A stretch of DNA of 64,000 nucleotides from an uncultured Pelagibacteraceae bacterium (GTDB lineage Bacteria > Pseudomonadota > Alphaproteobacteria > Pelagibacterales > Pelagibacteraceae): positions 1 through 64,000 of the forward strand of contig CACKXS010000004.1 in the NCBI GenBank assembly GCA_902604305.1. Reading direction: 5' to 3'. A program made the translations under genes and the position numbers. Below the pieces are notes generated by a model. That model did not search any database. It had not been told where the DNA came from and was given only the letters and a program-made list of their open reading frames with translations. Below are positions 14,290 through 20,401 of the stretch, piece by piece. How positions within the stretch are numbered: the first letter of the stretch is position 1; each line of letters starts with the position of its first letter.

Positions 14290-15405
14290 CTAATTTTTTT
14301 TCGTAGGTACTTCCTCTGGAGATTCTGCCTTTTCTTTCTCAATCGGATTACCTTCAATTTTTTTAGAAATAAGACCAGCTTTTTCTCTTATTGCCATTTC
14401 TATTTCTGCTGCAGCCTTAGGATTTTGTTCAAGGAATAATTTTGCATTTTCTTTTCCTTGGCCAATTTTTTCGCCCTTGTAAGCATACCAAGCACCTGAT
14501 TTTTCAACTATCTCTGCTTTTGCCCCAAGATCAATCAGTTCTCCAGTTTTACTTATTCCTTTTCCATACATTAGGTCAAATTCAACTACCTTAAATGGTG
14601 GCGCAACTTTATTTTTAACAACTTTTACTCTAGTTGCGTTTCCAATAATTTCATCTTTATCTTTGATGGCACCTATTCTTCTTATATCCATTCTAACTGA
14701 TGAATAAAATTTCAGTGCATTTCCTCCAGAGGTTGTTTCTGGACTTCCAAACATTACACCAATTTTCATTCTAATTTGGTTAATGAAAATAACCATTGTA
14801 TTTGTTCGAGAAACAGATCCGGTTAATTTTCTTAATGCCTGACTCATTAATCTTGATTGAAGGCCTACATGATGATCTCCCATCTCTCCTTCAATTTCAG
14901 CTCTTGGTGTTAATGCTGCAACAGAATCAACCACAATAACTGACATTGATCCTGATTTAATTAAAGTATCAGTAATTTCTAAAGCTTGTTCACCAGTATC
15001 TGGTTGAGAAATTAATAGTTCTTCAGTATTAACGCCTAATTTTTTTGCATAAACTGGATCTAATGCATGTTCTGCATCAACAAATCCACAAATACCACCG
15101 GCTTTCTGTGCTTCAGCTATAACTTGTAAAGCTAGTGTTGTTTTTCCAGATGACTCTGGCCCATAAATTTCAACAATTCTTCCTTTTGGCAATCCTCCAA
15201 TACCAAGCGCAAGGTCTAAACTTAGAGATCCTGTTGAAACAGACTCTACATCCATAGCTTTTTGTTGACCTAGCTTCATCACAGAGCCTTTTCCAAAGTT
15301 ATCTGTAATTTGGCTAATTGCTGCTTCTAGAGCTTTATTTTTTTCTTTGTTTTCCAATTCTTTATCTTTAGTGGATTTCACCACTTTTAAGTTATTTTTA
15401 GTCAT
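14290..15405 (-). CDS. recA: RecA recombinase
   Basis: This 371-residue protein has all RecA core motifs: Walker [14 protein letters not shown] at about residues 84-96, Walker [13 protein letters not shown], loop L1 region [23 protein letters not shown], and loop L2 with [30 protein letters not shown]. The first 20 residues are a lysine-rich extension and the C-terminus is acidic, as usual. It forms filaments on single-stranded DNA, drives strand exchange and promotes LexA/UmuD self-cleavage. The start has a good ribosome site (GAGG, 6 bases from ATG). Upstream is a predicted SOS operator matching the one at umuD; a terminator follows the gene. Confidence 0.99.
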
Positions 15406-15451: not shown

Positions 15452-15479
15452 AATGTACACATTTTGTTCTCATTGGCAA
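15452..15479 (-). promoter_or_regulatory. recA promoter with embedded predicted LexA/SOS operator
   Basis: On the minus strand TTGCCA and TACATT are 16 bases apart. Between and overlapping them sits GAAC-AAAATGT-GTAC (15455-15469), one base off the alphaproteobacterial SOS box GAAC-N7-GAAC. The site begins 50 bases before the recA ATG. The first 9 bases are identical to the umuD operator (GAACAAAAT), which supports a shared repressor. Confidence 0.7.
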
Positions 15480-18577: not shown

Positions 18578-18610
18578 ATTAGTATCCAACGAAACTATCC
18601 TTGGTTGAAG

Positions 18611-18671
18611 TTATCCACAAGCATACAAAATGTGGTTTCAATGTTCACGTTTTGATTCACTTTTGATTCAC
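18611..18671. other. Isolated DnaA-box match and tandem 11-bp repeat upstream of umuD
   Basis: TTATCCACA at 18611-18619 matches the DnaA box consensus exactly. Downstream, TTTTGATTCAC occurs twice in direct tandem (18650-18660 and 18661-18671). The gap lies between the divergent small exported gene and umuD. A single DnaA box without clustering does not make an origin. It may be chance or a regulatory DnaA site. Confidence 0.35.
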
Positions 18672-18695
18672 TTCCAGACTCAAAATACAACCTGA

Positions 18696-18724
18696 TTGAC
18701 ACTACTGAATAACTTATATATTAA
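18696..18724 (+). promoter_or_regulatory. umuD promoter
   Basis: TTGACA is a perfect -35 hexamer, followed after exactly 17 bases by TATTAA as -10. The predicted start point at about 18731 falls inside the SOS box immediately downstream, which is the classical layout for LexA repression. Confidence 0.75.
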
Positions 18725-18727
18725 TTA

Positions 18728-18742
18728 GAACAAAATAAGAAC
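18728..18742 (+). promoter_or_regulatory. Predicted LexA/SOS operator of umuDC
   Basis: GAAC-AAAATAA-GAAC is a perfect match to the alphaproteobacterial SOS box (GAAC-N7-GAAC, equivalent to GTTC-N7-GTTC). It begins 3 bases after the -10 hexamer and ends 5 bases before the ATG. Bound repressor would cover both the transcription start and the ribosome site. Confidence 0.85.
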
Positions 18743-18747
18743 ATTTT

Positions 18748-19143
18748 ATGAAGCTAACTATACCTTATTATTTACACAAAGCCGGCGCGGGTTTTCCATC
18801 CCCTGCAACAGATTATATTGAGGAAGATATTGATCTAAATATTCATTTGATCAAAAATGTTCCAGCAACCTTCATCATAAGAGTTCAAGGAAAATCAATG
18901 GTCGATGTTGGTATTAATGATGGCGATCTATTAGTTGTTGATAAGAGCTTAACACCAAAAAACTTTTCAACAGTTATAGCAAATGTTCATGATGAACTTG
19001 TAGTTAAAAGTTTTGTTCAAGAAAGAGATAAAAAATTTTTAACATCTGGATCTAAAAATTTTGAGGATAGAATTTTAATTAATGAAGAAGAAGATATTTT
19101 TATTTGGGGGGTTGTAACTTATGTCATCCATTCAACGTACTAA
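18748..19143 (+). CDS. umuD: UmuD, SOS-cleaved error-prone polymerase subunit
   Basis: This 131-residue S24-family protein matches UmuD in order and spacing. The self-cleavage region is [14 protein letters not shown], with the scissile bond predicted at Ala14-Gly15. The catalytic serine is Ser50 in [18 protein letters not shown] and the general-base lysine is Lys87 in DELVVKSF. The Ser-Lys spacing of 37 equals that of E. coli UmuD (60/97). The arm before the cleavage site is about 10 residues shorter than in E. coli. RecA-stimulated cleavage would produce UmuD', which joins UmuC as polymerase V. It has no LexA DNA-binding domain, so it is not the repressor. It overlaps umuC by 23 bp. Confidence 0.93.
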
Positions 19144-20401
19144 AAAAATAGCACTAGTTGATTGTAATTCTTTCTATGTTTCATGTGAAAGATTATTTAA
19201 TCCTAAAATAAGAAAAAAACCTGTTGTTGTCTTATCAAATAATGATGGGTGTATTGTTTCAAGATCTAATGAAGCAAAAGCATTGGGAATAAAAATGGGA
19301 GAACCTTATTTTAAAGCAAAAGATATTATTATTAAAAATAATGTTCAAGTTTTTTCATCTGGTTATTCTCTATATGGAGATATTTCAAGAAGAGTTATGC
19401 GAACTTTAAAACGTTTTAATTCTGATATAGAAGTTTATTCAATTGATGAGGCCTTTCTAGATTTATCAAATTTTTCTGATGACGAAGTAGAAGATGTTGG
19501 AAAAGAAATTAGAAGCACAGTTTTACAGTGGACTGGTATTCCAACAAGTATTGGTATTGCTAAAACAAAAACCTTAAGCAAAGTTGCAAATCATATTGCT
19601 AAAAAAAAAGAATCAGGAGTTACAAGTTTAATTGGAATTGAAAATATTGATCCAATATTAGAGAAGGTAGAAATAAATGATGTCTGGGGTGTTGGAAAAC
19701 AATTAACTAAATTTTATCACCAAAATGGAATTTATAATGCTAAACAATTAAAAAATATTTCTAATACTTGGATTAAAAAAAGTTCTAATGTCTTAAGTTC
19801 AAGAACTGCAATGGAACTTAGAGGTATTTCTTGTATTGATATTGAAAAAACTGTATCAAAAAGAAAAAGTTGTGTAGTATCACGTTCATTTGGCCAAAGA
19901 GTAGAAAAGTTTCAAGAATTAAAAGAGGCTATTTCAAATTACTGTTTGAATGCTTCAGAAAAAATTCGATCAGAGTCTTTAATTGCAAAATCAATAACTG
20001 TTTTTATTAGAACAAGTCCTTTCCAAAGTAAGTTTGGATATTATTCAAATTCAAAAACAATTGATTTTCCAGTTGGAACAAATAATAGTATTGAAATAGT
20101 TAAGACTGCCTTAACTGCTTTAGAAAATATTTTTAAAAATGGTTATCGTTATCAAAAAGCAGGCGTATTACTAACAGGACTGTCAAATGACGAAGGAAAA
20201 AAGAATTTATTCTCATCAGAAAAAGATGAAAAGATAAGTAGTTTAATGAAATCAATTGATAACACAAATTATAGGTATGGCAGATCTGCTATAAGTCTTG
20301 CTAGCGCAGGAGTTCAAAAGAGATGGAATATGAAAAGAGAACACTCTTCTAGAATAGATACGGCAGATTTTCATTTATTACCAACGATTAGAGCTATTTA
20401 G
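19121..20401 (+). CDS. umuC: UmuC, Y-family DNA polymerase V subunit
   Basis: This 426-residue Y-family polymerase has [19 protein letters not shown] at the N-terminus (first catalytic Asp and the cysteine-type steric gate region). Next are [20 protein letters not shown] and the catalytic [11 protein letters not shown] at about residue 107. The helix-hairpin-helix region with [16 protein letters not shown] follows, then the little-finger domain. The C-terminal DUF4113-like part ends [26 protein letters not shown]-style, as in UmuC. With UmuD' it performs translesion synthesis. It is translated in overlap with umuD under the same SOS-type control. Its last 8 bases overlap the alginate-lyase-like gene on the other strand. 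Confidence 0.95.

Follow-up and report, generated by a model that had tools for sequence, protein, structure and literature searches.

A predicted LexA operator at the umuDC promoter and a small putative SOS regulon in Pelagibacteraceae

Introduction

A direct repeat of the form GAAC-N7-GAAC lies immediately upstream of umuD in a 64,000-nt stretch of Pelagibacteraceae DNA (hereafter the window), and raises the question of whether the umuDC genes of SAR11 bacteria are controlled by LexA. The operator recognized by alphaproteobacterial LexA has been described as GAAC-N7-GAAC (PMC2248561), which is equivalent to GTTC-N7-GTTC (PMC8565304). SAR11 bacteria are among the most abundant marine cell types and are known for having few regulators. 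A preliminary description of the locus interpreted the repeat as an SOS box on the umuDC transcription start. Here, that interpretation was examined by establishing the operator sequences and promoter geometry, identifying the genes and measuring conservation.

Results and Discussion

The umuDC promoter and its box

The genes downstream of the repeat (Table 1) had the layout of a UmuDC, or DNA polymerase V, operon: a UmuD protein that lacked an HTH in a domain profile search was followed by an overlapping reading frame encoding a Y-family UmuC with DUF4113. The top NCBIfam model for UmuC was NF002955 (UmuC), at 406 bits and below the cut-off of 431. The nearest named relatives of UmuD were from Pelagibacteraceae, SAR11.

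The repeat was verified letter for letter, as were the positions of the TTGACA and TATTAA elements that had been reported to precede it. The start site, predicted approximately 7 nt past TATTAA, would land inside the box, in agreement with the preliminary description, and 5 nt separated the box from the umuD ATG at 18748. The claim that the box also covers a ribosome-site region did not hold; the leader from this promoter would be only about 17 nt long, no Shine-Dalgarno sequence was visible in it, and the box simply fills it. Among the relatives, a TTGACA/TTGACT-like hexamer was located approximately 30-37 nt 5' of the umuD box in most genomes of genera g1-g6, and TATAAA or TATTAA was present at the equivalent -10 place in many. 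One complete g12 genome (L100; G040:C1:796892-797206) carried an internal TAA in the umuD frame together with an intact operator; umuDC is possibly decaying in that genome.

Table 1. Positions of the genes, predicted promoter elements and boxes. Unprefixed coordinates are those of the window; C1 and C3 are contigs of the assembly that holds it (G000), and L numbers denote individual loci.
Feature	Location	Strand	Basis or remark
Rfam RF01827 'SAR11_0636 sRNA'	18603-18692	-	cmscan 112.4 bits, gathering 67; adjoins the umuDC promoter, outside the SOS switch
umuDC -35 element TTGACA, predicted	18696-18701	+	read from sequence
umuDC -10 element TATTAA, predicted	18719-18724	+	17-nt spacer after -35
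umuDC SOS box, predicted LexA operator, GAAC-AAAATAA-GAAC (GAACAAAATAAGAAC)	18728-18742	+	sequence and conservation
umuD, Pol V autoproteolytic subunit, 131 aa, S24 peptidase	18748-19143	+	PF00717 E 8.5e-22; NF007621 140 bits (cut-off 110)
umuC, Y-family Pol V catalytic subunit	19121-20401	+	PF00817, PF11799, PF13438
recA	14290-15405	-	TIGR02012 559 bits, PF00154
recA -10 TACATT, predicted	15452-15457	-	16-nt spacer from -35; overlaps the GTAC half-site
recA predicted LexA operator GAAC-AAAATGT-GTAC	15455-15469	-	GAACAAAATRTGTAC box upstream of recA in 28/28 genomes
recA -35 TTGCCA, predicted	15474-15479	-	invariant TTG in 28 genomes, 10 nt 5' of the box
lexA	G000:C1:69162-69839	-	PF01726 54.6 bits (HTH), PF00717 109.3 bits (S24)
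lexA boxes, predicted	C1:69862-69876 and C1:69841-69855	- and +, respectively	
nrdA box, predicted	C3:95209-95223 (L170 3210-3224)		between nrdA and the divergent phosphomannomutase gene
mraZ boxes, candidate	L157 1493-1507; L160 1511; L161 1522; L301 1501; L378 1002		

Motif counts and conservation

GAAC-N7-GAAC occurred three times in the window compared to 0.73 expected, a count that was reached in 4 of 100 shuffles, and the other two matches were in coding sequence, one of them within umuC. The whole assembly (860,642 bp, 72% complete) contained seven matches compared to 18 for a reversed control pattern, and genome-wide counts of the bare motif were in general at or below the reversed control. 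Since the genome-wide count was 7 against 18, the bare motif count proves nothing by itself. A refined motif, GAACAAADNNNGWAC, picked out umuD and recA in the window and umuD, recA and lexA as its three matches in the whole assembly, where the control gave none. The frequency of a random match in the 158-nt umuD leader was approximately 0.6% when simulated at the leader's own composition and approximately 0.14% at window composition.

Upstream regions of umuD, recA and lexA were gathered from at least 13 Pelagibacteraceae genera. The umuD box was present in all 37 genomes, representing at least 13 genera, at 0-6 nt before the gene start and nearly always in the form GAACAAA(A/T/G)-N3-GAAC; it also was present in 80 of 80 additional named Pelagibacteraceae loci. 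Over the 37 genomes, each box position carried on average 1.84 bits of information compared to 0.54 in the preceding 25 nt, with flanks that drifted while the bases of the box were near-invariant. Position and conservation, and not the motif count, decide for the umuDC box, and conservation is the strongest evidence. The repeat could have been a chance match in AT-rich DNA, with umuDC outside LexA control, as the lack of genome-wide enrichment and the two coding matches in the window might suggest. That explanation is already refuted by the family-wide conservation, and it also is at odds with the boxes of this kind that precede lexA and recA; next to no probability attaches to it.

LexA and the boxes at lexA and recA

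The lack of a LexA homologue had been named in the preliminary description as evidence that would overturn its interpretation; a lexA gene was found in the genome. Its product was the only HTH-bearing S24 protein detected in the 72% complete assembly, UmuD being the only other S24 protein. The DNA-binding domain was near-identical to those of alphaproteobacterial LexA proteins, and the HTH segment SKSGIHRLI-ALEERGFI was identical to that of the Sinorhizobium meliloti and Cereibacter proteins, whose lexA genes likewise have GAAC-N7-GAAC upstream. When compared to the same two proteins, IAAG (110-112; Ala-Gly cleavage), GDSM (catalytic S146) and LKR (catalytic K184) were invariant. All 127 near-complete genomes of the family gave matches in searches for UmuD and LexA, a few of them perhaps through the shared S24 domain only. 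In genus g2, unlike the genus of the window, lexA and umuDC were within approximately 2 kb of each other (G015:C1:22715-25244; G024:C7:18764-21293).

Two boxes were present between the -35 element and the ATG of lexA in 30 of 30 genomes, an arrangement on the gene's own promoter that is consistent with predicted autoregulation. The first, GAAC-N7-GAAC, was located 21-24 nt before the ATG, over the predicted -10 element. The second was inverted, ended 0-2 nt before the ATG and mostly carried a GTAC half-site, which was weaker in g5, g7, g9 and one g12 genome.

The recA gene, 3.3 kb from umuDC in the window, was preceded by a variant box that an exact GAAC-N7-GAAC search misses. This box was 39-56 nt 5' of the recA ATG, inside the promoter, and the ACATT that follows it was nearly invariant in the 28 genomes. 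Because the TTG of the -35 element is invariant and TACATT overlaps GTAC, the second half-site probably owes its A-to-T change to the needs of the -10 element. The regulon of umuDC and recA anticipated in the preliminary description was therefore represented by this variant box in the same window, with the two lexA boxes in addition, and its SOS-box reading is supported by these boxes together with the family-wide conservation.

Two further explanations were considered. A repressor other than LexA might bind the boxes, namely an S24 regulator of the UmuD or phage type comparable to UmuDAb, given that UmuD homologues of Acinetobacter are described as repressors (PMC3978071). The UmuD encoded in the window has no HTH, however, the only HTH among the two S24 proteins found in the 72% complete assembly is that of LexA, and boxes sit on lexA's own promoter, so that we regard this explanation as very unlikely. 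Alternatively, the conserved stretch might act chiefly in the transcript, where it would signal translation initiation or RNA stability, as would fit boxes that abut the start codon at umuD and, for the second box, at lexA. In contrast, the recA box is too far upstream and lies inside the promoter, the nrdA box (see below) is approximately 90 nt upstream of its gene, and the second lexA box is oppositely oriented; a role in the mRNA is thus extremely unlikely. The box at umuDC is very probably a LexA operator of the canonical alphaproteobacterial class.

From these features we infer that LexA binds and represses these promoters and that damage induces them. In the undamaged cell, a LexA dimer bound to GAAC-N7-GAAC would occlude the umuDC start site and block transcription. 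RecA filaments formed on single-stranded DNA would bring about LexA self-cleavage, which would release recA, where the box between -35 and -10 covers the spacer and the -10 element, and lexA, where one box lies over the promoter (-10) and the second between start site and ATG. The umuDC genes and nrdAB, the latter with its box over the -10 element, would be released upon the same cleavage, and RecA would turn UmuD into UmuD', giving active Pol V.

Extent of the putative regulon

Across 20 genomes GAACAAADNNNGWAC matched at umuD, at recA, usually at the second lexA box and at few other places, and most of the leftover matches were in coding sequence. When coding matches were removed from the nine complete genomes, intergenic GAAC-N7-GAAC remained only at umuD, lexA, nrdA and, in three genera, mraZ. 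One other intergenic match, in L314, was rejected as apparently a gene-calling gap within a synthetase-like coding region.

Each of 10 genomes, that of the window among them, carried the nrdA box as GAACATTTATAGAAC or a close variant of it (Table 1; further loci L316, L328, L331, L349, L361, L300, L372, L380 and L391). Pfam searches confirmed NrdA, NrdB and the divergently encoded phosphomannomutase. In six g1 genomes, a promoter reading toward nrdA was visible as a TTGATA-like hexamer, 16-17 nt and TATAAA or TATATA, with the -10 element inside the box. The repeats that follow the box we take to be NrdR-like. These arrangements suggest that nrdAB, which encodes ribonucleotide reductase, is apparently under LexA and probably belongs to the SOS circuit of SAR11.

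The case for mraZ was weaker than the others. Its boxes, in g5, g9 and g12, directly followed the RNase P RNA region, with a TTGAC-type promoter downstream of them, and ftsZ follows mraZ. This box is a candidate SOS target only, with a possible link to the cell division genes. Judged by its operators, the streamlined regulon would comprise about four operons: lexA, recA, umuDC and nrdAB.

Comparison with known SOS systems and expression data

The testable defining features of an alphaproteobacterial LexA SOS system all were found at the level of sequence: the half-sites, their spacing, a nearly identical LexA HTH, a lexA box on its own promoter and recA as a predicted target. The SAR11 boxes differed in having a common A-rich core, GAACAAAA, and in accepting a GTAC second half-site at recA and lexA, which at recA is apparently due to the overlap with the -10 element. 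No perfect GAAC-N7-GAAC was among the intergenic matches upstream of uvrA in the nine complete genomes, a result that concerns perfect boxes only, whereas uvrA-ssb regulation, to judge by a title cited in PMC1839093, has been studied in S. meliloti. As with Pol V of Escherichia coli, umuD and umuC form an operon, in SAR11 predicted to be under LexA, and UmuD is of the cleavable kind. Unlike the E. coli LexA operator, the palindrome CTGT-N8-ACAG, the SAR11 operator is a direct repeat. The N-terminal arm of UmuD presumably is shorter than that of E. coli, with approximately 14-15 residues before the AG/FPSPA site.

An SOS switch in SAR11, called notable in the preliminary description, is not a surprise, since co-expression and induction of its genes had been published. 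In microarrays of P. ubique, lexA, recA and mucA are reported to characterize one expression cluster in late iron stress (PMC2864753). During infection by phage HTVC027P, recA, lexA, umuD and umuC are reported to increase, as are nrdA (3.1-8.9 fold), nrdB (2.5-5.8 fold) and uvrABC, and the induction of nrdAB is read there as phage nucleotide demand and not as an effect of LexA (PMC12753301). These published data agree with the proposed switch. The same genes (recA, lexA, umuD (mucA), umuC and nrdAB) are covered by these transcriptome papers, in the available portions of which expression is given without operators (PMC2864753; PMC12753301). The induction of uvrABC is not explained by the proposed regulon, and the published inductions, in late iron stress and phage infection, come from conditions that change many genes.

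The predicted operators would provide a sequence-level explanation for four operons rising together in the published infection data, and the one at nrdAB a direct reason for the rise of these genes. We propose, with an even chance of being right, that the SAR11 SOS regulon (lexA, recA, umuDC and nrdAB, with mraZ-ftsZ in some genera) is among the smallest known, without a perfect excision-repair operator, and that the rise of nrdAB in pelagiphage infection is LexA derepression feeding dNTPs to the lytic phage and not a phage-specific effect. A complete and conserved LexA switch would mean that streamlining kept inducible mutagenesis while the regulon was cut to about four operons. The operator map is precise and yields a short list of promoters. 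This map, the GTAC half-site, the nrdAB operator and the limited size of the regulon were not found in the literature searched and are considered new, SAR11 operators apparently having been unmapped until now; the SOS genes of SAR11 were known before, and the kind of system is ordinary.

The neighbouring RF01827 element

The RF01827 element has been proposed to be an sRNA, and its authors report no covariation for the main stem (PMC2704228). Exactly three GANTC sites were present in each of the 29 copies inspected (L252-L281), with a middle base that varied at two of them, and a DnaA-box-like TGTGGATAA was present in nearly all copies. GANTC was depleted in the window (96 compared to 155 expected), yet three sites occurred within 28 nt at 18654-18681. 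Because the GANTC sites and the DnaA-like box are retained, and methylation at GANTC is known from Pelagibacter (PMC9516812), a methylated DNA element is a serious competitor to the sRNA reading; the pattern suggests a DNA element related to CcrM/DnaA, either in place of an RNA or in addition to one. A replication origin at this block was considered and rejected, as GC skew, sampled along a complete genome of 1,308,759 bp (G026), did not switch nearby and some g4 genomes had two copies. Where umuDC has moved away, as in g2 and in part of the g4 genomes, a copy of RF01827 stays approximately 3 kb from recA.
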